A DNA stretch of 64,000 nt from an uncultured Tenacibaculum sp. (GCF_947495995.1 NZ_CANMAX010000007.1:126001-190000); one strand, 5' to 3'. Numbered from the stretch's first letter, positions 2,418-61,480 are shown. The notes: generated from the sequence alone by a model not told the origin. Translations and numbers: made by a program.

Positions 2418-3275
2418 TTAATTCTTATTCCAATTCTTTTCAAAATACTCGATGTATTGTATATAATTCGAGTCTTTTTTAGCATACTTTTTTGTCAGTT
2501 TAGCCCATTCGTCAAACTTCGTTCTATTTTTTAATTTAAAAAAAGCTTGTGCCATATTTATAGCCATTTCACTTTTTTCAAAATCGTTATCTGATGCTGA
2601 AATTCCTTTTAAATATATTTCTTCAGCCTTTTTAACTTGATCAAGATTTACATAAGAAAAACCTAATTCTCTATAGAAATAGAAGTTTTTAGGATTGTTT
2701 TTAATCGCTTTATCTAAAATAGGAATTGCTTTTTTGTACTGTTTCAAATGATTGTAAGCGTAAGATAATTCAAACTCAAGACCTTTGAAATGAGGTTTTA
2801 TTTTATAGGCTTTTAATAAAGGAACTAAAGCACGTTCACAAGCTCCAGCATGATTATAATGGTAACCTTCGTTTTTTAAATAGCCTACGTTTTCAGATCC
2901 TTGTTTATAAACCGATAACCATTCTGGTGTATCAGGTAAATTCAGATCCTTAATTTGTTCTTTTGTTAAAATTGAAACCGGATTAGCATTTGTATCGATT
3001 CGATATTTTGCAGCACCAGTTTGTAAGTTCTTTCCTACTTTTTTAAAAGTTCCGTTTTCAATTTTAAATCGATCTTCATAATTGAAAGTGAAACCAGCTT
3101 GGTTGTCCAAATAAATAAATCCATAAGCAAAAGAAGAGTCTATATCTTTATTAGGAAATGCCACCCATTTATCAACAGCATCAAAATATTTAGTATTAAA
3201 GTTTAAGTCAGTGCGTTTATTTTGTGAAAATCCAAGATTGGATATTAAGACTAAAGCTAAAATTATTTTTCTCAT
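2418..3275 (-). CDS. Secreted TPR-repeat protein
   Basis: A 285-residue protein with an N-terminal signal peptide (MRKIILALVLISNLGFSQ). Residues 150-285 form several TPR-like helical pairs, e.g. KQYKKAIPILDKAIKNNPKN and DQVKKAEEIYLKGI. TPR proteins of this sort are periplasmic or surface scaffolds; no enzymatic motif is seen. It is divergently oriented to 3520..4476 across a 244 bp spacer that must carry both promoters. Confidence 0.8.
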   Translation of the reverse strand: MRKIILALVLISNLGFSQNKRTDLNFNTKYFDAVDKWVAFPNKDIDSSFAYGFIYLDNQAGFTFNYEDRFKIENGTFKKVGKNLQTGAAKYRIDTNANPVSILTKEQIKDLNLPDTPEWLSVYKQGSENVGYLKNEGYHYNHAGACERALVPLLKAYKIKPHFKGLEFELSYAYNHLKQYKKAIPILDKAIKNNPKNFYFYRELGFSYVNLDQVKKAEEIYLKGISASDNDFEKSEMAINMAQAFFKLKNRTKFDEWAKLTKKYAKKDSNYIQYIEYFEKNWNKN

Positions 3276-42442: not shown

Positions 42443-42587
42443 TGCCCGCTAACGTATTTGTGTATGATTTTTTTTTGCGGGAAAAGGACGCGAGTTCTTT
42501 TCCGTTGATGCGGAAAGATAATTAATAAGATTGAATTTCCGCTGAGGAAATTCAGCCGCAATTAATTATACACCTTGTTGTAACCAG
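42443..42587 (-). repeat. attC-like site, family B
   Basis: Left arm TGCCCGCTAACGTATTTGTG (42443-42462), right arm CACCTTGTTGTAACCAG (42571-42587). Inside lie two hairpins: GGAAAAGGACGCGAGTTCTT and TGAATTTCCGCTGAGGAAAT. The right arm pairs with TGGTTACAAC at 43959-43968 (10 bases), closing the two-gene unit 42588..43953. Confidence 0.82.
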
Positions 42588-43313
42588 TTATTTATTCCAT
42601 TCTTTTAGTTTTCTAAAGACTAATAAATGTAAGAAAATTATTGTAGCTGGTGCAAAAGCAGGAATCCAACTAAAAGGAAATGTTCCAAATTGTTGTACAC
42701 CTGATTCATTATTTTCTATTGCAAATCTGGTTAAAATTGTTGCTGTTGTTAATACAGATAGAATATCTAGGAGACCAATTATATTCCAAACCCAAACCAA
42801 TTGTCTTGCAAATGAAAGTCTTTTTCTTAAAGCTATCATAACAGGAATGGCTAAAATAGCGGTCAAAATATCACCAGTACCTCCAATATATGCAAACTCT
42901 TTAGGTATAGAGTTATAAAAATAAGCCAAAAAGAAAAATAGACCAACAAACCGAAAAAGGTGTATTAAAATTAATTGTTCAAGTTTAATATGCTTAAATA
43001 CAAACTTAAACCATTTAGTTTTTTGAATATAAAAAAGATAAAATAGAAAAAGAGGTATTGCTGAAAAAGCTATTATTCTAGGAGGAAGCACATTTTTTTC
43101 AAAAAAACCAGTTAATGACACTAAAGCTATAATTGTAAAATAGGACCAATAAAAAATAAATATTTTTTTATTTATAGATGAGTTGACTTTATCGCCATCA
43201 TTTTTATAAGCTAATTTTACTGCGTTTGCAATTAGATAAAGAGGTATTGTACTAAAGCTGATAATGAATAGAGAAGATACCCAAATAGGCACTTGTGTAA
43301 TTGATAATTCCAT
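42588..43313 (-). CDS. Polytopic membrane protein under Crp-type control
   Basis: A 241-residue protein with seven hydrophobic segments (e.g. IWVSSLFIISFSTIPLYLIA, LILIHLFRFVGLFFFLAYFY, GTGDILTAILAIPVMIALRK, WIPAFAPATIIFLHLLVF). No recognised family. It follows the Crp-type gene 43381..43953 inside the same cassette, with a palindrome between them. Confidence 0.72.
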   Translation of the reverse strand: MELSITQVPIWVSSLFIISFSTIPLYLIANAVKLAYKNDGDKVNSSINKKIFIFYWSYFTIIALVSLTGFFEKNVLPPRIIAFSAIPLFLFYLFYIQKTKWFKFVFKHIKLEQLILIHLFRFVGLFFFLAYFYNSIPKEFAYIGGTGDILTAILAIPVMIALRKRLSFARQLVWVWNIIGLLDILSVLTTATILTRFAIENNESGVQQFGTFPFSWIPAFAPATIIFLHLLVFRKLKEWNK

Positions 43314-43361
43314 AATTGTTATTGTTTTTCACAAAGATGGATTATTGTATTAGATATTAAA

Positions 43362-43375
43362 TTGCCATAAGGCAA
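43362..43375. promoter_or_regulatory. 14 bp palindrome, candidate operator
   Basis: TTGCCATAAGGCAA is a 5+5 inverted repeat with four bases between. It lies 49 bp upstream of 42588..43313, after the stop of the Crp-type gene, and its centre is about 33 bp upstream of a CATCTTTG box (43332-43339), close to the Bacteroidota minus-7 element. A terminator for the regulator gene is an alternative. Confidence 0.42.
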
Positions 43376-43380
43376 CTTGC

Positions 43381-43953
43381 TTAAAGTATTTCAATTTCTT
43401 TTCTAATTCTGCTCAAAGAATATTTGGTTATACCTAAATAAGAAGCAATGATATGAAGTGGAACTTTTTCAATAATTTCTGGACAATTATTTTTCAAATA
43501 TAAATATCGATCTTGAGCTGTTTCTTTATGGAAAGAAATCATTCTTTTATTAATATGGGCATAATTTAATGTCAAAAGCATTCTTCCCCATTCTCTAAAT
43601 TCAGGGATGCTATGGAAGCAATGTTGCACATTATCATAGTTAATACTATACACTTCACAATCAGTAATTAGTTCATAATTTTCGTCACTGGGTTTTTGCT
43701 CAAAAAAAGATAAATAATCATTTAAAAAGTCTGGTGCTGAAAAAAACCTTGTAGTTACTTCATCACCATTCAAGTCAATAATGTAACATCTAATAATTCC
43801 AGATTCTAAAAAATAAGATTTTCTACTTGTTTTACCTTCTTGAATTATTAAAGTTCCTTTATGCAAAGTTTCGTTTTTAAAATATGTAGCAATTAAGTCA
43901 GCTTTTTCATCTGACATTGACTTAATATTTTTAAGATATTCTCGAAGTTTCAT
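43381..43953 (-). CDS. Crp/Fnr-family transcriptional regulator
   Basis: A 190-residue regulator: beta-roll domain (LIQEGKTSRKSYFLESGIIR) and winged helix with ASYLGITKYSLSRIRKE. No Fe-S cysteines. It forms a two-gene integron-type cassette with the membrane protein 42588..43313. Confidence 0.9.
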   Translation of the reverse strand: MKLREYLKNIKSMSDEKADLIATYFKNETLHKGTLIIQEGKTSRKSYFLESGIIRCYIIDLNGDEVTTRFFSAPDFLNDYLSFFEQKPSDENYELITDCEVYSINYDNVQHCFHSIPEFREWGRMLLTLNYAHINKRMISFHKETAQDRYLYLKNNCPEIIEKVPLHIIASYLGITKYSLSRIRKEIEIL

Positions 43954-45562: not shown

Positions 45563-45697
45563 TTATGCCTAACGTTTTATGTATGTTTTTTTGCGATTTT
45601 CTGTAAAGTTAATAAAAAGCTACAAGTAAAAAATAAGATACTTTTGTTTAAATTATTGAGTATTCCGCTACTTAAATATACACACCGTTATTTGCTG
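45563..45697 (-). repeat. attC-like site, divergent family A
   Basis: Left arm TTATGCCTAACGTTTTATGT (45563-45582), TTTTTTTGCGATTTTCTGTA and GTTAATAAAAAGC. The inside then diverges (TACAAGTAAAAAATAAGATA) and the right arm is ACACACCGTTATTTGCTG (45680-45697). The right arm pairs with GCACATAAC at 45850-45858 with one mismatch. Confidence 0.75.
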
Positions 45698-45847
45698 GAC
45701 CAAAATCGAAAGTTTCTAAATTAATAGTAGTTATTATTTCAGCTTTAACTTAAAAAAGATTCCTCATTATCAATTTAGGTAAATGATGAAATTTTATAAT
45801 TAAAGAAGAGGTTTTAATGAAAGCTTTATTATGATAAATAAAAGGGC
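45698..45847. other. ORF-less cassette interior
   Basis: About 150 bp between two attC-like sites whose arms match each other. Neither strand has an open frame longer than about 30 codons with a start. A/T-rich, no clear hairpin or promoter. It may hold a small RNA, a promoter, or the rubble of a lost gene. Confidence 0.5.
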
Positions 45848-45988
45848 TTGCACATAACGGCTCTGTATAAGCCTTGTTGCGTTTGGTTTAGCGTAAAATT
45901 AGCAAATTATTACTGAATAGAAAGTCCGCGAGGACTTTCGAAAGTAAGCTAAATGCTAGCAATAAGGTTTATACTTTGTTAGCCACAG
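45848..45988 (-). repeat. attC-like site, family C, intact
   Basis: Left arm TTGCACATAACGGCTCTGTA (45848-45867); inside, AAATTAGCAAATTATTACTG and the perfect hairpin GAAAGTCCGCGAGGACTTTC; right arm CTTTGTTAGCCACAG (45974-45988). The right arm pairs with TTGTGGCTAAC at 46587-46597. Confidence 0.85.
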
Positions 45989-45989
45989 T

Positions 45990-46580
45990 TTATTTCTTTT
46001 TACATTCAAACCATTCAGTTTCAAATAGCCAAGATTTTTCAAACTCTGGAATGGTGTCTTTTGGTTCAAACTTCGCTATAGAATAGTTTTTTAAATTGTT
46101 TCTCCTTTCAGTTTCGTAATGTTTTTTCAAGTTAATATTTTTCTCCTTTTTCAATGAAGAATAATAAATATATGTAAGTGAAGAATCTTGATTAATCAAA
46201 AACCAATGTTCACTTCCACCCCAAGTTTGACCACAAGGTGGTTCAAATTTATATGCTTTTATAGTGTCTCCTTTAACGAAATAATTTCCATCTCTAAAAT
46301 TTCTCCAAGAAAAAAAGCCATTAGGAAAAAATCTAAATTCAATATTCATTGAATCTTTTACATTCATTTTAAGTTTTTCATTCCATTTTTCATAGTTATA
46401 TTTCATTAAATAATTACCATTTATAGGAATAATTGAATCCAAACCAGTAGATAATGAATCAAAACATTTTTCTATATTTATGCTCACATCTTTGGGAATA
46501 GATTTTTTTACCCAACAAGTGTAGCAAGATTTTAAAGTTAAAATCAGCAATAATAGTGAAGTTAGTTTTACGATTTTCAT
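45990..46580 (-). CDS. Hypothetical lipoprotein with Cys-rich segments
   Basis: A 196-residue lipoprotein (signal MKIVKLTSLLLLILTLKSCY, lipidation Cys). Body with SMNIEFRFFPNGFFSWRNF, FEPPCGQTWGGSEHWF and KSWLFETEWFECKKK, beta-rich and aromatic. No recognised family. It fills a single-gene cassette with exact 10-base ends. Confidence 0.7.
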   Translation of the reverse strand: MKIVKLTSLLLLILTLKSCYTCWVKKSIPKDVSINIEKCFDSLSTGLDSIIPINGNYLMKYNYEKWNEKLKMNVKDSMNIEFRFFPNGFFSWRNFRDGNYFVKGDTIKAYKFEPPCGQTWGGSEHWFLINQDSSLTYIYYSSLKKEKNINLKKHYETERRNNLKNYSIAKFEPKDTIPEFEKSWLFETEWFECKKK

Positions 46581-47914: not shown

Positions 47915-48052
47915 TTGCTTACAACGGTTTGTATATGGAAAGTTGCGTGCAAATAAACACAAGTTTATCAGACTAAAATACAGAAAATTAATAAACCAAA
48001 ACTTTGAATAAACATGGAACAAGCAGTTTTTTATATACGTTGTTGTAAGGCG
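47915..48052 (-). repeat. attC-like site, divergent family
   Basis: Left arm TTGCTTACAACGGTTTGTAT (47915-47934), inside GTGCAAATAAACACAAGTTT and AAAATACAGAAAATTAATAA, right arm ATACGTTGTTGTAAGGCG (48035-48052). The right arm pairs with ATGCCTTACAAC at 51002, three kilobases away, closing a five-gene unit. Inner sequence is unlike family A. Confidence 0.78.
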
Positions 48053-48765
48053 TAATTTTTTATAGTGAATTGTTCTTTAAAACCTAATTTTAGGTATAAT
48101 CCTTTTCCCATATTAGAAGATTGTAAAGTAATATAGTCACTATTAATTTCGATAGATTGATTTATTAAAAGTTTTATTATTTGTTCAGCATAACCTTTTC
48201 TTCTTTGTTCTGGGATTATTCCGACAGAGTGAATACCGGTAACTTTATTTGTTATATGCAAAATAGCTGTTCCAACAGGTTCATTATTATAATAAGCAAT
48301 AAAATAGTTTGTATCCTCTTGGGCTGTATTTAATAATATAGGATTTGTAAAATACCCGAAAGATTTAGAGAATAATATAGACCATAATTCAGCCTCTTTT
48401 TTAGTAGTAATTTTTTTTAATTTTATACTACTTGATTTAGTGAATGTCCCTTTGGGTTTTAAATACATTCCTATTTGTTCAAATTTAAGAGTGAATCCGT
48501 TTTCTTCTAATAATTGAAAAGAATTACTATTGTAGATATTCCAATAAGGAATCGTTAGGTTTGTTGAAGTTGAAGATAATTTATCTTTCGCAAGAACTAT
48601 TTTAGCTTCATTAATATCGTTATGAAACCATAATCTATTTGGCCATTCAGAGTTTTCAATCAAACAATAAGCAAATTCTTTTTCAATGAAACTTGAGTTA
48701 AATGGTTCACTTACTGTTTGCCAAAGAGAAGTCAGGTTTTTTATATTTAATTTTACACTACTCAT
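48031..48765 (-). CDS. GNAT-family N-acetyltransferase
   Basis: A 244-residue GNAT. The catalytic domain is C-terminal, with motif A GIHSVGIIPEQRRKGYAEQI and the end SSNMGKGLYLKLGFKEQF; the N-terminal half looks like a second, degenerate GNAT domain. The last codons (LQQRI, stop) are read from the recombination arm. It is the last gene of the five-gene unit. Confidence 0.85.
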   Translation of the reverse strand: MSSVKLNIKNLTSLWQTVSEPFNSSFIEKEFAYCLIENSEWPNRLWFHNDINEAKIVLAKDKLSSTSTNLTIPYWNIYNSNSFQLLEENGFTLKFEQIGMYLKPKGTFTKSSSIKLKKITTKKEAELWSILFSKSFGYFTNPILLNTAQEDTNYFIAYYNNEPVGTAILHITNKVTGIHSVGIIPEQRRKGYAEQIIKLLINQSIEINSDYITLQSSNMGKGLYLKLGFKEQFTIKNYALQQRI

Positions 48766-48766
48766 T

Positions 48767-49216
48767 TCATTTTATATTGATTAATGCGATTCCAAGAATC
48801 ATTGATAATATTCCGATAGTCTTTTTTAATGTTATTGGTTCTAAAGGTAAACTTAACCAACCATAATTTCCTGCAATTACAGCAAAGATTAATTGACCAC
48901 AAAGCCCCATTGAAATCATTGTAGCAATTCCAAGTTTAGGGATAGTATAATAATATAAACTTATTCCTAAAACACTAAATAAGCCACCAGTAAACCATAA
49001 ATAAATAGGAACGTCTTTTGCTTGTACTATTGTCGGTAAAGATTTGGAATTGAAGAGTACAAATACAAAAGAAAATAAAGTACTGCTGAAAAAAGCAATC
49101 AAACTTGCTAATAAAGGGTGTCTTAATAAAACACCTAATTGAGCATTTAATCCACCTTGAATAGCTAAAAATACACCACCAATAAAAGCCAAAATTAATA
49201 GACCATAATTATTCAT
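48767..49216 (-). CDS. DUF606/YdcZ-type small DMT-superfamily membrane protein
   Basis: I start it at the ATG at 49216 (MNNYGLLILAFIGGVFLAIQ); an earlier ATG would overlap the gene upstream. 149 residues with five helices, including GGLNAQLGVLLRHPLLASLI and SMGLCGQLIFAVIAGNYGW, as in the DUF606/YdcZ transporters, which are half the size of the usual EamA proteins and act as dimers. Substrate unknown. Confidence 0.85.
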   Translation of the reverse strand: MNNYGLLILAFIGGVFLAIQGGLNAQLGVLLRHPLLASLIAFFSSTLFSFVFVLFNSKSLPTIVQAKDVPIYLWFTGGLFSVLGISLYYYTIPKLGIATMISMGLCGQLIFAVIAGNYGWLSLPLEPITLKKTIGILSMILGIALINIK

Positions 49217-49229
49217 ATGTCTACAATTA

Positions 49230-49694
49230 TTAATTTTTTGATTCAATTCGGTTACTGATACTTACATTTACCCAAGCAAAGATATAACCAGAGAATAAAG
49301 TGATGATTAATAAAAAAAAGAGGTTTATATCTATTTGTGCTTTTGACCCAAACCAAACAATCATTCCTAGAAAGTAGGCAGGAATAGTGTTTAAATATTT
49401 TAATTTTGAGATATAAAATACTCCAATCATAACTGTAAATACTATAATAGGAAACCCTAATAAATGCAGTATTTCTGAAAAGTAAGTGCCAAAATATTGA
49501 ATGATTATCGCAATTAAAATTCCCAAAGTTTGCTGTACAAAAATGGAAGTCGCAGTTTTAATTTTTGTGCCAAATAGATAATAGCTTACCCACGCTATAA
49601 ATAAAACCCATACTGGTAAACCTAAATAAGATGCTGTAAAAACGGCTATTGAAGAAATAAGCCCTAACAGTAATGCTTGTTTTAACGATTTCAT
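49230..49694 (-). CDS. DUF1097 family membrane protein
   Basis: A 154-residue polytopic protein with the DUF1097 pattern: SYLGLPVWVLFIAWVSYYLF near residue 25 and YFLGMIVWFGSKAQID in the second half. It is five-helix and function-unknown. It overlaps the nitroreductase gene by 4 bp (coupled) and is followed closely by the DUF606 gene. Confidence 0.78.
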   Translation of the reverse strand: MKSLKQALLLGLISSIAVFTASYLGLPVWVLFIAWVSYYLFGTKIKTATSIFVQQTLGILIAIIIQYFGTYFSEILHLLGFPIIVFTVMIGVFYISKLKYLNTIPAYFLGMIVWFGSKAQIDINLFFLLIITLFSGYIFAWVNVSISNRIESKN

Positions 49695-50317
49695 TGTACA
49701 AATAAGTCTTTGATCGGTTTTCTAACTTTCTTTACATGTTGTGCTGCATCTTCACTTGACCGATAGCCAATTGCTGCGATAACTGAAGTGTTTAGTCCTT
49801 GTTCTTCCAGGTTTAATATTTCGTTGTATTTTTCTGCCTCAAAACCTTCCATAGGACAGGAGTCTATTTTGAGTTCGGCACAGGCATTCAACAAATTCCC
49901 TAAAGCGATATAGGTTTGATTAGAAGTCCATCTATCCTTTTCAATATTAGACTTACGATGAACGTCTGCTTTGATAAAGTCAGAATAAGCTTTTAAATCA
50001 GGAATATCCACCTCTTCTATTTTAGATTTTAAGATGAAATATTCCTCTATGTGCTTTTCTGTTACAGCAGAATAATTACAAAAAACAATCAAATGAGATG
50101 CCTCTGTTATTTGGTTTTGTCCATAAGAAGCCGACTTTAGTTTTTCTCTCAGTTCAGGATCTTCAATAATCAAAACTTTATACAATTGAAGTCCATAAGA
50201 AGATGCCGATAACTGAATAGCTTTCTTTATCTGCTCTAAATTTTCTAAAGAGACTTTTTTTGAAGAGTCAAATTGCTTTGTAGCGTATCGCCACTCTAGG
50301 TTGCTTATTAAATTCAT
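49691..50317 (-). CDS. Nitroreductase-family FMN oxidoreductase
   Basis: A 208-residue NAD(P)H:FMN oxidoreductase: LEWRYATKQFDSSKKV at the N-terminus, SSYGLQLYKVLIIEDPELRE, SQ/QNQITEASHLIVFCNYS, DSCPMEGFEAEKYNEIL and the tail AAIGYRSSEDAAQHVKKV. The family reduces nitro compounds, quinones or enals. In this cassette it lies directly downstream of a Crp-type regulator, a usual setting for redox-responsive control. Confidence 0.92.
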   Translation of the reverse strand: MNLISNLEWRYATKQFDSSKKVSLENLEQIKKAIQLSASSYGLQLYKVLIIEDPELREKLKSASYGQNQITEASHLIVFCNYSAVTEKHIEEYFILKSKIEEVDIPDLKAYSDFIKADVHRKSNIEKDRWTSNQTYIALGNLLNACAELKIDSCPMEGFEAEKYNEILNLEEQGLNTSVIAAIGYRSSEDAAQHVKKVRKPIKDLFVQ

Positions 50318-50344
50318 AATATCTTTTTATAATGATTTACATTA

Positions 50345-50352
50345 CAAAATTA
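50345..50352 (-). promoter_or_regulatory. Candidate minus-7 box of the nitroreductase operon
   Basis: TAATTTTG on the minus strand equals the Bacteroidota sigma-ABfr consensus TAnnTTTG. It lies 28 bp upstream of the ATG at 50317 and is adjacent to the palindrome at 50361-50376, where a regulator could act. Confidence 0.5.
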
Positions 50353-50360
50353 TTATGAGG

Positions 50361-50376
50361 AATGCAGATGTGCATT
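50361..50376. promoter_or_regulatory. 16 bp palindrome, candidate operator
   Basis: AATGCAGATGTGCATT is a 6+6 inverted repeat with four bases between, 44 bp upstream of the nitroreductase gene and after the stop of the Crp-type gene. A box reading TAATTTTG on the minus strand (50345-50352) matches the Bacteroidota TAnnTTTG minus-7 element exactly. No T-run follows, so a terminator is unlikely. Confidence 0.5.
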
Positions 50377-50389
50377 TACATATGTTGAT

Positions 50390-50989
50390 TCAGGGATTTT
50401 TCTTTAGGTCTTTCTTTATTCTGCTTAATTGGGTGGGGGTAATTCCTAAGTGTGAGGCTATATGTCGCTGTTGCACTATTCGGTCAATATTGGGATGTTT
50501 TTGGAGTAGCCTTAAGTACCTTTCAGTTGCATTTTGCATTACTAAAGATACTTCTCGTTCTTCCTTTTCAATAACCCAATTTTTTTCTAAATAGGCAATG
50601 TAGAAGTTTTTTAAATCGATATTATCTTCAATAAACTGCCTGTATAATTTGTAATTAAGACTAATAAGAATAGTGTCTTCCAGTGCTTCAAGTGTGAAAT
50701 TTGAAGGTGTTGTTTGGAGGTATGAAACAGTTGATCCTGCAAAATCAGTTTCAAGAAATAGATTCTTGTTATAAATGTTTCCATCATAATCCGTTACATA
50801 AGCTCTCAAGGCTCCTTTACAAACAAAATGGATGTTTTTCGCAACCTGTCCACTTCTTAGTAATATTTCATCTTTTTCTAATTTTTGAAATGTAATTATG
50901 GATTCAATTAGTGACCAAGATTTGTCCGAAATTTCAGCATAACTTTCAAACTTTAATTTTAATTCCGAAATGTATTTTTCTTTTGTCAA
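50390..50989 (-). CDS. Crp/Fnr-family transcriptional regulator
   Basis: A 199-residue regulator with beta roll (ILLRSGQVAKNIHFVCKGAL) and winged helix (ASHLGITPTQLSRIKKD). No Fe-S cysteine pattern. It is the first gene (5' end) of the five-gene cassette and is probably its regulator. Confidence 0.92.
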   Translation of the reverse strand: MTKEKYISELKLKFESYAEISDKSWSLIESIITFQKLEKDEILLRSGQVAKNIHFVCKGALRAYVTDYDGNIYNKNLFLETDFAGSTVSYLQTTPSNFTLEALEDTILISLNYKLYRQFIEDNIDLKNFYIAYLEKNWVIEKEEREVSLVMQNATERYLRLLQKHPNIDRIVQQRHIASHLGITPTQLSRIKKDLKKNP

Positions 50990-51000
50990 ATCTTGGTTTT

Positions 51001-51142
51001 TATGCCTTACAACGTTTTGTGTATTGTTATTTGCGATTTTTAAATGTAAAGTTAATTAAAAGCGGTGAACTTTTGGTTTTGCGAGATTTAGTCCGAAGGA
51101 TTAAATCCGCAAGCAATTAATAATACATTTTGTTGTGCGTAG
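51001..51142 (-). repeat. attC-like site, family A, intact
   Basis: Left arm TATGCCTTACAACGTTTTGT (51001-51020), core GTAAAGTTAATTAAAAGCGG, hairpin GCGAGATTTAGTCCGAAGGA, right half GCAATTAATAATACATTTTG and arm GTTGTGCGTAG (51132-51142). The right arm pairs with TTACGCACAAC at 51833. Confidence 0.87.
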
Positions 51143-55888: not shown

Positions 55889-55903
55889 TTTTTCGTTCAC
55901 TAA

Positions 55904-56044
55904 TTATGCCCAACGGTCTTGTATATGATTTCGTTGCGTGGTTTAAGCACTAAAGTTAGCAAATAAATCACAGATAGAAAGTCCGCGAGGACTTTCGTAA
56001 GTAAGCTATAACTAGCAATGAATTATACACATTGTTGGCAATAG
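55904..56044 (-). repeat. attC-like site, family C, intact
   Basis: Left arm TTATGCCCAACGGTCTTGTA (55904-55923), inside AAAGTTAGCAAATAAATCAC and the perfect hairpin GAAAGTCCGCGAGGACTTTC, right arm CACATTGTTGGCAATAG (56028-56044). Right arm pairs with TTATTGCCAAC at 60740, 4.7 kb away. Confidence 0.85.
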
Positions 56045-56114
56045 TTATTATTTCATACCAATAATATGTCTACGTTATTAAAACTTTTGTTTTACCATTG
56101 GTTTTACACTGAAA

Positions 56115-56867
56115 TTATTTGAGAGGTAAGAAAGTTAAGGATAGGAATAGTGTATTAGTTGTCATATGGATTAGCAAAGGATATTTAAATCCAAAAGCGA
56201 CTCTTGTGTATCCTGCAATGGTGGCGCTGAATAATTGTGGAAGTGTTAATATAGGTAGCAATAAAAGATTGGTGAGATTTAATTCAAAATTAAAAATGTG
56301 TAACCATGCAAAGCTGATGCACGATATATAGTAAATCCACTTAAACTGTTTTTTCCAAAACTGTTGTAAAACCTGTCTTACGGGCCTTCTACTAGATATC
56401 ACATACACTATTAACAAAATTATAACCCCTGTTATGATTCTATACCAAAAGGTATCATCCACCATAGACAATCGGCTTTTAAAAACAGCTTTAGTCATGA
56501 TATAATAGGTGAATGTTCCAGACGTTAAGGCCAAATAAATTGGTTGAAATTTTAGTGATAATCTAAAGGTAATCTCTTCAAATATGGGTAGAATAAGTCC
56601 ACCGACTAAAAGCAATACTAATGGGCTAAATCTTTCGGACATACTTACTGATGTTTGGTTTTCAGGCTCATATGCCAGCTGTAATAATGAGGCAGCTGTA
56701 ATACTAAAAACAAGCTTTATAAAAAAGAGACCTATGGTATCGTAAATTTTATGTTTGGTACTTTTCTCTATGGATTGTTTATTTATGGGATGCCTTATAA
56801 AGTTCGCTAAGTCTATTATTAGTGACTTGTAGTATTTTGGTTTTATCAACGGATAGGAAACGGTCAT
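56115..56867 (-). CDS. CPBP-family intramembrane protease homologue
   Basis: A 250-residue polytopic protein with the CPBP (Abi) pattern: LPIFEEITFRLSLKF gives the E-E-x-x-x-R motif, CISFAWLHIFNFEL the conserved His, and GFKYPLLIHMTTNTLF the C-terminal His/Asn motif. The family includes Rce1-like proteases and bacteriocin-immunity proteins. A strong hairpin separates it from the higher-G+C operon on its right. Confidence 0.85.
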   Translation of the reverse strand: MTVSYPLIKPKYYKSLIIDLANFIRHPINKQSIEKSTKHKIYDTIGLFFIKLVFSITAASLLQLAYEPENQTSVSMSERFSPLVLLLVGGLILPIFEEITFRLSLKFQPIYLALTSGTFTYYIMTKAVFKSRLSMVDDTFWYRIITGVIILLIVYVISSRRPVRQVLQQFWKKQFKWIYYISCISFAWLHIFNFELNLTNLLLLPILTLPQLFSATIAGYTRVAFGFKYPLLIHMTTNTLFLSLTFLPLK

Positions 56868-56887
56868 CGAGTTTTTATTTAAATGAT

Positions 56888-56926
56888 TGAGGCTCTAACT
56901 TACGTGAAGTGATGTTTAGAGCCTCA
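56888..56926 (-). terminator. Strong hairpin, likely terminator of the NmrA-like operon
   Basis: TGAGGCTCTAA (56888-56898) and TTAGAGCCTCA (56916-56926) are perfectly complementary over 11 bp around a 17-base loop. It lies 10 bp after the stop of the NmrA-like gene, in the right place to end its transcript. The T-run behind it is weak (ATCATTTAAAT), so it may act as a transcript-end stabiliser. Confidence 0.65.
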
Positions 56927-56935
56927 GTTAAAGAT

Positions 56936-57778
56936 TTAGTAAGCTTCCACTATTTCTGAATTCCAAATTCCAGTTTTTGCGGTTTCTTCGGCATAAGCTG
57001 AAAAGGGCTTTGCTTTTCTGCCCAAAACTCGTTCCACATCATTAACCACCAACTGATTATTAGGGTTGGTTAACACATGGCTAAACAAATACTCTATTAA
57101 CCACACCACATCACCAGGTATTTGTTGCTGTTTCATGCCTTTAACATACTGCTGCAGTGTGATATCATGAAAGTTTAAACTTCTGTTACTGGCTTTCGAA
57201 ATCATAGTAACAACATCTTTAAAGTTGATTAATTCTGGACCTGTCACTTCAACGGTATCTCCGTTATAAGTGTCATCAAGCAAGACTGTTGCAGCGACTT
57301 CTGCAATGTCATTAGCATCAACAAATGGAATTAAAACGTCTGATAATGGTAATGCTACTTCTCCGGACAATATTGGGTCTAAAAAGAAGCTTTCACTCCA
57401 GTTTTGGTTAAACCAAGAGGCTCTTACGATGGTATAGTCTATACCAGAATCCATGACGATTTGTTCACAGGCCTCAGCTTCGGTTTCTCCTTTTCCAGAA
57501 AGCAAAACCATTTTTTTGACTCCTGAAACTTTAGCCAATTGGGTTAATTCTTGTATCGCTTCTTTGGCTCCTGGAACGGCCAAATCTGGATAATAAGTTA
57601 CATACATACGTTCTACGCCATTTAAGGCATTTACCCAAGTACTTTTGTCATCCCAATCAAAGCTAGGCGATGCACTTCTTGAACCAATTCGAGGTTCTAT
57701 ACCTTTGTTTTTTAATTGTTCTACGACTCGGCGGCCTGTTTTTCCTGTTCCACCGATAACTAAAATGTTACTGTTCAT
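56936..57778 (-). CDS. NmrA-like NAD(P)-binding protein
   Basis: A 280-residue Rossmann-fold protein: VIGGTGKTGRRVVEQL (G-x-x-G-x-x-G) at the N-terminus, MVLLSGKGETEAEACEQIV, YTIVRASWFNQNWSESFF and the end VVNDVERVLGRKAKPF. It belongs to the NmrA/SDR-atypical group, usually redox sensors or isomer reductases acting on NAD(P) and quinones (YtfG/QorB-like). Last gene of the redox operon. Confidence 0.9.
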   Translation of the reverse strand: MNSNILVIGGTGKTGRRVVEQLKNKGIEPRIGSRSASPSFDWDDKSTWVNALNGVERMYVTYYPDLAVPGAKEAIQELTQLAKVSGVKKMVLLSGKGETEAEACEQIVMDSGIDYTIVRASWFNQNWSESFFLDPILSGEVALPLSDVLIPFVDANDIAEVAATVLLDDTYNGDTVEVTGPELINFKDVVTMISKASNRSLNFHDITLQQYVKGMKQQQIPGDVVWLIEYLFSHVLTNPNNQLVVNDVERVLGRKAKPFSAYAEETAKTGIWNSEIVEAY

Positions 57779-57810
57779 AATTTTATTTTTTTTATTTGAT
57801 TTATACTTCG

Positions 57811-57826
57811 CTTCAGAAATCTGAAG
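57811..57826. promoter_or_regulatory. 16 bp palindrome, candidate operator
   Basis: CTTCAGAAATCTGAAG is a perfect 7+7 inverted repeat around two bases, 33 bp upstream of the NmrA-like gene. It shares the outer CTTCA...TGAAG with the palindrome at 16611, beside another Crp-type gene. Its place in the operon of Crp-type gene 60130..60723 suggests it is an operator of an internal promoter. A terminator after DUF1772 is an alternative, but no T-run follows on the minus strand. Confidence 0.45.
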
Positions 57827-57863
57827 CCTTTTTATTCGTTTTTTGGTTGATGATTAAGATTTT

Positions 57864-58358
57864 CTATTTGGAATATATGAGTCCAACTAGCAAGAGAGCA
57901 AAAGATGTAAACGATGCTATTGTGCGTTGAACATGCCAACGGTTCCAAGGTTGTTCAAATTTTGCACGCAACTCTTTAAGCTTTATGGCTGAGAGGTTTT
58001 CTAATACCGTCTTATCTAACACTTCATTGAGTGGCACGTTTTTAAAAACCGTAATAATGCCTATACCAACGAAATATAAAATGGCTGCTATTAAAAAAGA
58101 CTTAAACGTGACTGGATTTGCATTACGATGTAAAATGGCATTTGCAAAAAGCAGCGGCACAGGCCCTAAAAAGACAATGAGAAAACTAGCATTAAGAATC
58201 GAACGATTCATGGCTTGAAAAGCTTGTAAAAAACCTAAATCGTCTAATCTCCCTATACCAGGCGTAATGGCATTGGACCAAGTAAAACATAAACCTGCTG
58301 AAAGTCCTATAAATAGTATACTTAGCATTAATACGATGAGTCTAATTTTAATTTCCAT
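57864..58358 (-). CDS. DUF1772/anthrone oxygenase-like membrane protein
   Basis: A 164-residue protein with four helices (IRLIVLMLSILFIGLSAGLC, ILNASFLIVFLGPVPLLFAN, ILYFVGIGIITVFKNVPL, IASFTSFALLLVGLIYS) and the pattern NVPLNEVL then WNRWHVQRT typical of DUF1772. Some relatives are anthrone oxygenases; the role here is unknown. Second last gene of a redox operon. Confidence 0.86.
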   Translation of the reverse strand: MEIKIRLIVLMLSILFIGLSAGLCFTWSNAITPGIGRLDDLGFLQAFQAMNRSILNASFLIVFLGPVPLLFANAILHRNANPVTFKSFLIAAILYFVGIGIITVFKNVPLNEVLDKTVLENLSAIKLKELRAKFEQPWNRWHVQRTIASFTSFALLLVGLIYSK

Positions 58359-58412
58359 TTTTAATTGTTTTTAAATGTTGGTACAAATCTATAGTGGTTA
58401 TCAACCAATCAT

Positions 58413-58955
58413 TTATTCCAAAGGGCTTATGATTTGTTCGAAAAGTTGAACCCTTTGAATCAGTTCTTCTTTTAACTCCCCATTTGAAATACCATCTTCA
58501 GAGAAATTGTCAAAGAAACTAGGCAAGGAAAAATTCCCAACGACATTAGCACCTAAGAAAGGAAAGTAGTTAACAGCACCCTGTAATACAGTGGCACCAC
58601 CACGACCACCAGGTGAGGTTGCCATTAAGAGTACGGGTTTCTCTCGCCATACTTTCATATTTGCGCGAGACAACCAGTCTAATATGTTTTTAAATACCGC
58701 TGTATAGGTTCCATTGTGTTCTGCTAATGCAATTATAAATCCATCGGCTTTATCAAATAATTCATTGAGTCTTTTAACAGCTGTTGGAATGCCATTTTCT
58801 TCTTCAAAATCAACTCCGTAAATAGGCAGCACATAATCGTTTAAGTCGATATAAATTAGTTCTACATTTTCCAACAAACCAGAAGTGTAGGATAGCAACC
58901 TTTTGTTAATAGATTTCTGACTATTAGTTCCTGCTATTGTGATGATTTTTTTCAT
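58413..58955 (-). CDS. NADPH-dependent FMN reductase
   Basis: A 180-residue flavodoxin-like reductase: IITIAGTNSQKSINKRLLSY at the N-terminus (phosphate loop), GFIIALAEHNGTYTAVFKNI, DWLSRANMKVWREKPVLLMA then SPGGRGG. Family members reduce quinones, chromate or azo dyes using NAD(P)H. Its stop precedes the neighbouring genes closely in a compact operon. Confidence 0.93.
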   Translation of the reverse strand: MKKIITIAGTNSQKSINKRLLSYTSGLLENVELIYIDLNDYVLPIYGVDFEEENGIPTAVKRLNELFDKADGFIIALAEHNGTYTAVFKNILDWLSRANMKVWREKPVLLMATSPGGRGGATVLQGAVNYFPFLGANVVGNFSLPSFFDNFSEDGISNGELKEELIQRVQLFEQIISPLE

Positions 58956-58956
58956 G

Positions 58957-59412
58957 TTATTTGTTTTTTGAGATTAAACCGTCTATCGACCATTTGCCAC
59001 TTCCATTAACTACAATACTTAATGCAAGACCAATAACTAGAAGCGAGAATTCGTAACCTTCGCCTGCTTGATTTCCATACCAATTCATAAAAAAACCGTG
59101 TTCAAGTTGTGTAGTGATAATGATCCCTGTAAACATGCCCGCAAGTGATAAGGCCCAAAATCTGGAGAAGAATCCAAGAACTAATGAAATAGAGCCAAAA
59201 AACTCAATCATAATTACTGAGAAGGCAACAATAGCGGGTAAGCCCATTTGTGTAGTCAATGCGTCCATTGTTGAGGAATAGCCATAACCACCAAATAGAC
59301 CTAATAATTTTTGAGCACCATGCGGAAACATGACTAAGCCAAGCGTCCATCTTGCAATACTAAACCCAATAATTGGGTTGGTTTTTAAAAGTTGTTTTAC
59401 TGAATTTTTCAT
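58957..59412 (-). CDS. DoxX-family membrane protein
   Basis: A 151-residue four-helix DoxX protein: LGLVMFPHGAQKLLGLFGGY near residue 30, FFGSISLVLGFFSRFWALSL, GFFMNWYGNQAGEGYEFSLL at the end. Usually paired with quinone oxidoreductases or thiosulfate:quinone systems. Its ATG is 22 bp from the neighbour and it abuts the FMN reductase gene by 1 bp. Confidence 0.92.
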   Translation of the reverse strand: MKNSVKQLLKTNPIIGFSIARWTLGLVMFPHGAQKLLGLFGGYGYSSTMDALTTQMGLPAIVAFSVIMIEFFGSISLVLGFFSRFWALSLAGMFTGIIITTQLEHGFFMNWYGNQAGEGYEFSLLVIGLALSIVVNGSGKWSIDGLISKNK

Positions 59413-59434
59413 AATGTTTAAGATTTATAGTTGT

Positions 59435-60076
59435 TTATAGAGTTTTACGATAATAGATTCCGAAAGCTGTTTTCTCGATAGGTTGAGGTCCAAACTGGTC
59501 AAGATCTATACCCATACCAACCTGATGTTGATAAATAGAAACGCCAACTCTCAATTGTTGAAAGCTTCTTGAATGCCGATTAAACTCATCCCAAATGGTT
59601 AAGAACTGGCCGTTTAACCAGATTGACAGATGGTCATTTATAGGTTGGTTGTATTGGAATTGTGCTAATACCTCAAAGTAGCTGGCATTTTTCTGTTCTG
59701 AGTATGCCACGGTAGGCATCAGTACCAATAACAGTCGTGAATTTTTAAAGGTATACTTGGCAGATATTCTTTCAGAAAAGCCGGCAAAACTGTTATAGTA
59801 CATGGACGGCCCAAGAGCAATGTTTTTGGTAATATTCCAAAATAAGGTGGGTTGTAAACCAATCTCATCAAATTGCTGGTTTTCTTGCTTAAACTTTTGG
59901 AAGAAAGCCAGGGTATTCAGACTCAGAGTCTGACTTTTAGTAATAGAGTAACTTGAGAATACTGTGAAGTCTGTTTTATCTAATCCAGCGAACAATTCTA
60001 CCTGAGTAAATTGCGACAGCAAAGGATTTATAAACCCAATGATTAAAAGAGAAGTGATGATGATAACTTTTTTCAT
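59435..60076 (-). CDS. Secreted beta-barrel-like protein
   Basis: A 213-residue exported protein (signal MKKVIIITSLLIIGFINPLL, then SQ). Repeated amphipathic strands such as QTLSLNTLAFFQKFKQE, FSERISAKYTFKNSRLLLV and FEVLAQFQYNQPINDHLSI indicate an outer-membrane beta barrel. No recognised family. It is the gene directly downstream of the Crp-type regulator in this unit. Confidence 0.7.
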   Translation of the reverse strand: MKKVIIITSLLIIGFINPLLSQFTQVELFAGLDKTDFTVFSSYSITKSQTLSLNTLAFFQKFKQENQQFDEIGLQPTLFWNITKNIALGPSMYYNSFAGFSERISAKYTFKNSRLLLVLMPTVAYSEQKNASYFEVLAQFQYNQPINDHLSIWLNGQFLTIWDEFNRHSRSFQQLRVGVSIYQHQVGMGIDLDQFGPQPIEKTAFGIYYRKTL

Positions 60077-60129
60077 GCTTCAAAATTCCGAAAGGGACAC
60101 ATGAAAAAAAATGAACTAGTTTAAGACTT

Positions 60130-60723
60130 TTACCTTCTGTTGACTTTTGTGATAATCTTGCTCATAAATTCGGGAGTGATGCCAATATAACCCGCCAAAT
60201 CTTTCTGAGTAATTCTGTTAACAATATTCGGATATTTCGTTTTGAACTCAATATATCGTTCCTCTGCAGTTAATGAAATGCCGTGATTTGAGCGTCTTAT
60301 ATAACTTATCAAGGACTTTTGGTATAGCATGCGATAGAATCTTTCAAACTTGGGTATTTCTTGAAATAACAATTCGTAATTAGCTCTAGAAATTCCTAAT
60401 AGTTCAGTGTCTTCGGTAGCTTTAATAAAATAGCGTGTTGGCTCCTTAGTCATAAAACTCGCCATATCGCCTGTCCAATAATCTTCTACAGCAAACATAG
60501 AAATGTGTGGTGCGCCGTCATCATCAAGCGTGTAGACCTTTAAGCAGCCTTTAGTGATAAAATATTCGTAAGATGTTATATCACCAGCTTGCATTAAAAA
60601 TGCCTTCCGCTTTATGTTAATCTCCGTTAGTAATGAAATGTATTTCTGCTTTTCTAATTCGGTTAGATTAATGAATCTAGATACATTATTTAGGATTAAG
60701 ATATGTGATTCTTTATATAGCAA
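60130..60723 (-). CDS. Crp/Fnr-family transcriptional regulator
   Basis: A 197-residue regulator with beta roll (AFLMQAGDITSYEYFITKGC) and winged helix (AGYIGITPEFMSKI). It lies at the 5' end of the seven-gene cassette with redox enzymes downstream. In Bacteroidota similar regulators respond to oxidative or electrophilic stress; that is inference here. Confidence 0.92.
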   Translation of the reverse strand: MLYKESHILILNNVSRFINLTELEKQKYISLLTEINIKRKAFLMQAGDITSYEYFITKGCLKVYTLDDDGAPHISMFAVEDYWTGDMASFMTKEPTRYFIKATEDTELLGISRANYELLFQEIPKFERFYRMLYQKSLISYIRRSNHGISLTAEERYIEFKTKYPNIVNRITQKDLAGYIGITPEFMSKIITKVNRR

Positions 60724-60739
60724 ATTAGATTTTCATTAA

Positions 60740-60878
60740 TTATTGCCAACGGTCTAGTGTATGATTTCGTTGCGTGTTTAAGCCTTTAATTTAGCAAATA
60801 AACACAGATAGAAAGTCCGCGAGTACTTTCGTAAGTAGGCTATAACTAGCAATGAATTATACACATTGTTGCCATTAG
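60740..60878 (-). repeat. attC-like site, family C, intact
   Basis: Left arm TTATTGCCAACGGTCTAGTG (60740-60759), inside TTAGCAAATAAACACAGATA and a near-perfect hairpin GAAAGTCCGCGAGTACTTTC, right arm CACATTGTTGCCATTAG (60862-60878). The right arm pairs with TTAATGGCAAC at 61591 (10 bases). Confidence 0.86.
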
Positions 60879-61480
60879 TATTTTTCTGTTAATTTTTCAA
60901 ATCCATTCATTAAGTCAACTAGTTTTTGTCTTTCTTTCCAACCAGAAAATTTGCCATCGATAAATGATTCTGGCGAATAGCTCCCATAAGCTAAGTAGTT
61001 ATTTCCTTGACATATCCAAAAGCTGTAATTTGTTCCATCAGAAATACTCATAGTTATCATTGTTCCCTCTTCTTCTCCTTTTTTTTTAGTGATATTCAAT
61101 TTAGATTTATCAATTACATACTTATTTCCTTCGATGATATTATTTAGATGGTTCCAATAATATTTATACTCTTTTTTCTTAATTTTTTTCCGCTTGATTT
61201 TTGTTTTCAGTTCAGTCGAATTCGGTTGGTAAACAACATAGCGTTTCACTTTTCCATTATTTAGGTAAACGATAAATTCCGAATTCTGTCCTTTTGACCA
61301 ATAAGATGAATAACCAATCTTAATTATTAAAGAACTCTTATCCTTTAATTTCAATAATTCCACAAAATTATTTTCCGTTTCTGTTTTTCCTTCCCATTCA
61401 ATTTTTGGGATTTTGAACTCTTGAGAAAACGATTTTCCAACAAGTGTTAGAAACAATATTATTAAAAGATTTTTTTTCAT
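60875..61480 (-). CDS. Secreted hypothetical protein, 201 aa
   Basis: A 201-residue exported protein (signal MKKNLLIILFLTLVGKSFSQ). Lys-rich beta domain (WEGKTETENNFVELLKLKDK, YKYYWNHLNNIIEGNKYVID, GKFSGWKERQKLVDLMNGFE). No recognised family. Its stop lies in the recombination arm. Single-gene cassette. Confidence 0.66.
   Translation of the reverse strand: MKKNLLIILFLTLVGKSFSQEFKIPKIEWEGKTETENNFVELLKLKDKSSLIIKIGYSSYWSKGQNSEFIVYLNNGKVKRYVVYQPNSTELKTKIKRKKIKKKEYKYYWNHLNNIIEGNKYVIDKSKLNITKKKGEEEGTMITMSISDGTNYSFWICQGNNYLAYGSYSPESFIDGKFSGWKERQKLVDLMNGFEKLTEKY

Follow-up and report, generated by a model that had tools for sequence, protein, structure and literature searches.

Vibrio superintegrons are long chromosomal arrays of mostly hypothetical genes, and integron cassettes are usually described as single genes, most of them promoterless. 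In a different functional context, the catDE, mhqNOP and azoR loci of Bacillus subtilis are quinone-response modules with the regulators CatR, YodB and MhqR. According to one account (PMC8618304, legend to Fig. 1), gene cassettes generally contain one open reading frame, and sometimes two or none. The 64,000-nucleotide stretch of DNA analysed here (the window), from an uncultured Tenacibaculum species, contains a unit of 4.7 kb (~55914–60750) that holds seven genes and is flanked by two sites of ~150 bp. All seven open reading frames are on the minus strand, in the order Crp, barrel, DoxX, FMN reductase, DUF1772, NmrA and CPBP, and form one operon with the Crp regulator leading. These are the genes that an initial annotation, made from the sequence alone, had named. 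In the direction of transcription, the features are as follows.

60741–60880, minus strand: upstream bounding site of type C, the end of the preceding cassette, with R'' TAATGGCAAC and R' GTTGGCAATA
60741–60750, minus strand: cassette 5' end GTTGGCAATA, the same in six cassette-form copies elsewhere, with one mismatch in a seventh
60130–60723, minus strand: Crp/Fnr-family regulator with a cNMP-binding domain, the operon's first gene; TTG start ~27 nt past the cassette end
59435–60076, minus strand: outer-membrane beta-barrel of 12 strands with a signal-like N-terminal helix (AlphaFold and Foldseek)
58957–59412, minus strand: DoxX-family membrane protein
58413–58955, minus strand: NADPH-dependent FMN reductase, YieF/ChrR/azoreductase-like
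57864–58358, minus strand: DUF1772/anthrone-oxygenase-like membrane protein
56936–57778, minus strand: NmrA-like NAD(P)-binding protein, related to QOR2/YtfG
56115–56867, minus strand: CPBP-type protease (glutamic intramembrane), from a weak, sub-cut-off NCBIfam match and EExxxR, FxxxH and HxxxN motifs in the translation
56034–56043, minus strand: TATTGCCAAC (R''), which closes the cassette body on its 3' side; it pairs with the 5' end at 10/10 and is also present in L068, L069, L070 and L072 (cassette copies listed below)
55905–56046, minus strand: trailing type C site of the seven-gene cassette; the next cassette begins at R' GTTGGGC

The two bounding sites (55896–56047 and 60732–60879) are 90% identical and thus belong to one family, type C, as had been proposed; the proposed 10-base match of the arms, GTTGGCAATA (gene strand, 60750) with TATTGCCAAC (56036), is likewise exact at 10/10. 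A third type C copy, 78% identical, lies within the window at 45856–45990. Because an automatic site finder that demands strict arm pairing missed sites, we instead used a looser search and removed spurious matches by hand. The upstream bounding site has hairpin-fold z-scores of −2.6 on the minus strand and −2.1 on the plus strand, and the fold scores for an imperfect single-stranded hairpin are at z of about −2 to −3 on both strands; Rfam gave no match anywhere in 36–64 kb of the window. A TAnnTTTA motif occurs ~90 nt into many sites between 39 and 64 kb, chiefly on the gene strand, and might be a site-borne promoter element. The broader form TAnnTTTR stands at a constant position on the gene strand in 14 of 20 sites, compared with 4 ± 1.7 in shuffles, a recurrence that homology between the sites would by itself suffice to explain. 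Inside the sites, a search for a −33/−7 promoter gave no full match and no −33 box. At 45690–45858 (minus strand), ~170 bp without an open reading frame separate two sites; this may be a gene-less cassette, although its end is poorly matched.

Cassettes in this array follow a rule in which the initial ten bases (GTTNNNNNNN) are the reverse complement of the same cassette's end (NNNNNNNAAC). Such a match would be expected if a unit circularises at GTT and its circle must restore a paired site. Over 15 consecutive cassettes the own-end match averages 9.73/10, against 5.6/10 for pairs taken between cassettes, and its sum was reached in none of 100,000 permutations. The seven-gene unit scores 10/10 and, as each start pairs with its own end, we read its seven genes as one cassette. 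Could two or more cassettes instead have fused after loss of an inner site, leaving outer ends that come from different cassettes? Related cassettes hold four, five, six or seven genes, so the unit has grown or shrunk, and the histories of CPBP and NmrA are partly separate from that of the core. Fusion nevertheless seems improbable, as the outer ends match as well as those of single cassettes, the same gene order occurs outside arrays (L108, L109 and L113–L115) and GC3 is uniform across all seven genes.

The array holds other cassettes with more than one gene. One at 48044–51013 (minus strand) encodes Crp, nitroreductase, DUF1097, YdcZ exporter and GNAT proteins, with G+C slightly raised in the Crp and nitroreductase genes only; its ends also match 10/10, so operon cassettes are not unique to the seven-gene unit. 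Another, at 42579–43950 (minus strand), has two genes, a Crp-family regulator and a membrane protein, and by eye its ends seem paired (GTTGTAACCA/TGGTTACAAC).

The composition of the operon is foreign to its host. G+C is 35.4% across the unit (33–38% in 1-kb intervals), compared with 27.9–28.8% in the rest of the window and 30–32% in the sampled host chromosome. The initial annotation had put the contrast at about 40% against 30%; the contrast holds, with the array at about 28%, and the figure of 40% does not. Codon use differs too, as had been suspected: GC3 averages 32.8% for the seven genes (29.3–38.5% per gene), compared with 18.6 ± 3.5% for 132 host open reading frames and 21.9% for other cassette genes, and codon likelihood is higher under the codon use of relatives with the chromosomal operon than under that of the host. 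One might argue that the operon belonged to the host lineage from the start, its composition merely reflecting conserved, membrane or highly expressed genes, since cassettes of hypothetical genes are AT-rich and any conserved gene would look GC-rich next to them. We consider this reading close to untenable, because each of the seven genes lies at or above the 99th percentile of GC3 among the 132 host open reading frames, the operon was not found in either of the two congeners in our search (G132 and G335) and a nearly identical copy exists in another genus.

Outside cassette arrays, the operon is an ordinary chromosomal one. Across 301 family genomes, a DoxX relative is encoded in 17 apart from the host, and 13 of these preserve the order of the core genes Crp–barrel–DoxX–FMN reductase; in most of the 13, DUF1772 and NmrA follow downstream, and CPBP is present in two. 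Operon matches occur in 21 of 400 family genomes, host included. When the genomes of 84,980 species were scanned with the Crp protein, 74 loci emerged, and the order is kept in most of them. Where Crp and barrel occur together (69 loci), 57 have no site within reach and six have sites on both sides, while L070 has a site upstream and a contig end downstream; the gene order is thus found without nearby sites in more than 50 Flavobacteriaceae loci, which answers the earlier call to look for the operon outside integrons. Four further loci (L075, L079, L080 and L094) have a site on the 3' side only and are possibly stranded cassettes or steps in cassette birth. None of the plasmid records searched carries the operon, and phage matches were distant Crp relatives. 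Two Tenacibaculum finnmarkense plasmids, CP116296 and CP116298, carry type C-like sites (~80% identical), and plasmids could therefore be a vehicle for cassettes.

Seven other genomes from several genera contain the unit in cassette form, with four to seven genes and the same ends, as expected of a mobile unit found in other contexts (L068–L073 and L076).

L068, Winogradskyella sediminis: all seven genes
L072, Flavobacteriales ALC-1: all seven genes
L070: all seven genes
L069: six genes, without DUF1772
L073, Maribacter 4-441: five genes
L076, Flagellimonas aquimarina: five genes
L071, Aquimarina AU474: four genes

Six of the seven have the identical 5' end GTTGGCAATAATTA, and L073 departs from it by one mismatch. 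The 3' end TATTGCCAAC follows CPBP in L068, L069, L070 and L072 and NmrA in L076; in L071 and L073 the match is shorter. Cassette neighbours differ between genomes where examined (L068 and L072). The W. sediminis copy, on an 8.1-kb contig, is 99–100% identical to the window at the DNA level over ~60785–59950 and ~58350–55940, and only 72–88% identical between these outer parts (59950–58350); the core protein SucA of the two hosts is only 62% identical.

In a tree of four core proteins, cassette-form copies make up one clade (SH-aLRT 97) and do not group with their hosts. Mapping the cassette or chromosomal label onto this tree requires one change, and none of 500 shuffles is as low. Cassette CPBP proteins also form one clade (100), whereas the NmrA proteins of L069 and L076 are of the chromosomal kind, indicating that genes have been swapped inside the cassette. 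The operon was thus captured once or a few times, after which it passed from genus to genus and genes inside it were swapped. Foreign composition, occurrence outside arrays and absence from the two congeners all bear out the original suggestion of capture from another species; most likely, the host received a ready-made cassette already circulating among genera, the capture itself being older and having happened elsewhere.

How does the cassette move? At either end, identity between the window and W. sediminis stops at GCTTAAA within a type C site, not at GTT; the upstream site's outer arm of 33 bp moved along with the cassette. For that exchange, homologous recombination between type C sites is the simplest account. 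One could extend it to all movement between genera, which would then depend only on long repeated sites, genes, and plasmids or imported DNA, with no site-specific recombinase acting now; the inner mosaic relative to W. sediminis and the type C sites on Tenacibaculum plasmids would fit. We regard so general a role as unlikely, though not negligible. In L069–L072, the constant part begins precisely at GTT, with GTTGGCAATAATTA, whichever family the upstream site belongs to; the ends of contigs C7, which carries the array, and C23 share one site and by eye diverge from GTT on; and an intact recombinase adjoins an array end. The family of the trailing site body varies between copies while its initial ten bases are retained, a pattern that no model fully accounts for.

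A site-specific route, with homologous recombination superimposed, would run as follows. An ordinary flavobacterial operon would have been made into a cassette, spread between genera and recently arrived in this host. The cassette could excise as a circle in which GTTGGCAATA joins TATTGCCAAC and rebuilds a perfectly paired site, with an expected junction of ...GACCG joined to TTGGCAATA, although excision has not been observed. By inference, the circle would re-insert either at GTT in a different site or at an attI-like repeat. The tyrosine recombinase of the array (367 residues in the host, contig C3) is the likely enzyme, its catalysis being inferred as well. Inner genes would have been swapped later, as copies, and also type C sites, recombined homologously with one another. 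Expression is probably driven from outside the cassette, an inference from the mere ~27 nt between the cassette end and the first gene.

In the host, the nearest candidate recombinase occupies the left end of contig C3 (L052:1575–2678) and is co-directional with the cassettes. Directly after its stop come a short inverted repeat, which is attI-like, and a cassette with 10/10 ends. Two near-identical tRNA-like copies are present upstream (L052 ~2875–3170). At E ≤ 1e-60, 166 of 301 family genomes encode a relative of the recombinase, and five of the seven genomes bearing the cassette have a recombinase of that kind. Where its stop could be located, a similar repeat and a GTT start come next, and the ends of the first cassette match at 9–10/10 in 18 of 21 recombinase loci, compared with 10% in cross-locus controls. 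Array (C7) and recombinase (C3) are on separate contigs; we infer their join from site repeats at the contig ends, the left end of C3 entering the same type of array. C23 (L053) and the end of C7 (L055) have the same terminal site and then differ from GTT onwards, and the sharing of this site accounts for the assembly breaks there. C23 also has a second copy of the cassette start found ~45.5 kb into the window.

Is this platform an integron? None of the host's recombinases scores above the IntI cut-off. The TIGR02249 match to the array recombinase falls below the 265-bit cut-off and is split around the IntI-specific domain, and the distance from GKGxKDR to HxLRH is 65 residues in every ortholog in which the motif was found, compared with ~108 in IntI 2a3v; the insertion of roughly 43 residues is thus missing. 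This additional domain has been reported to be essential for integron integrases (PMC8138268, PMC9668308). We therefore call the platform integron-like rather than a proven integron, and the 'integron' label given earlier needs qualification. In the open literature, which leaves out most subscription journals and preprints, we found neither a description of integron arrays from these genera nor one of integrons that lack the IntI domain. By a narrow measure, we favor the broader idea that more than half of Flavobacteriaceae genomes have an integron-like platform with an Xer-like tyrosine recombinase lacking this domain, upstream of and in line with an array, and that this platform both captures whole operons of up to seven genes plus regulator and trades them across genera.

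With respect to function, the FMN reductase is nearest to YieF, ChrR and azoreductases, and the NmrA protein to an NmrA regulator and the quinone reductase QOR2 (YtfG); enzymes of quinone-reductase families, as a quinone module would have, are thus present as judged by sequence only. None of the seven proteins matches a defense system in PADLOC. A plausible interpretation is that the unit forms a module at the membrane that, under control of its Crp-type regulator, detoxifies quinones or other electrophiles by reduction, a prediction from family membership with no direct evidence of what it acts on or how it is regulated. Metal stress competes seriously with this reading, and some other role, such as metal, gold/copper or envelope stress, remains a real possibility that we hold only tentatively. 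The barrel (AlphaFold pLDDT 88.4, 12 predicted strands) matches small porin-like barrels and the copper protein PcoB in Foldseek, PcoB having the top TM-score (0.65–0.69), and the DoxX and DUF1772 proteins resemble, below cut-off, helpers in the maturation of copper-binding peptides (HvfX and ChrI). By contrast, the FMN reductase and NmrA proteins are closest to quinone, azo and chromate reductases, and the seven genes include neither a copper chelator peptide nor a P-type ATPase.

The cassette boundaries, own-end pairing, foreign composition, occurrence of the operon outside arrays, presence of the cassette in other genera and internal mosaicism are established. Taken together, we think it highly probable that a cassette of an integron-like array carries a complete, regulated operon that was captured elsewhere, spread from genus to genus, arrived recently in this host and had inner genes swapped. 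Thus, a whole operon and not a single gene seems to be mobile through an integron-like system. As the chromosomal form, intermediates of four to six genes and swapped genes coexist, the birth and growth of a cassette can be tested directly. Should these cassettes be moved by the recombinase that lacks the IntI domain, integron function would be uncoupled from a supposedly essential domain in a large family of marine bacteria.

Comparison with described systems shows what is shared and what is new. As in attC/IntI integrons, cassettes point in the same direction, each has a recombination site at its 3' end with RYYYAAC/GTT-type ends (R' with GTT, R'' with AAC), the start of a cassette pairs with the R'' of that same cassette and an attI-like site adjoins a tyrosine recombinase, here 3' of the gene. 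Unlike an integron cassette, the unit has seven genes with their own regulator, and the recombinase, whose gene points the same way as the array, is without the IntI-specific domain. The array resembles the Vibrio superintegron in being long, chromosomal and rich in hypothetical genes, and differs in phylum, in recombinase and in mixing several site families. Genes and order are shared with the chromosomal Crp–barrel–DoxX–FMN reductase operon of Flavobacteriaceae, which lacks nearby sites in 57 of 69 loci. The B. subtilis modules likewise combine a DoxX-family membrane protein with flavin-dependent quinone/azo reductases, whereas they have no barrel, DUF1772 or CPBP and use other regulators. 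New relative to these systems is a cassette that is a travelling operon; its relatives contain four to seven genes, and the array in which it sits has a recombinase other than a standard IntI.
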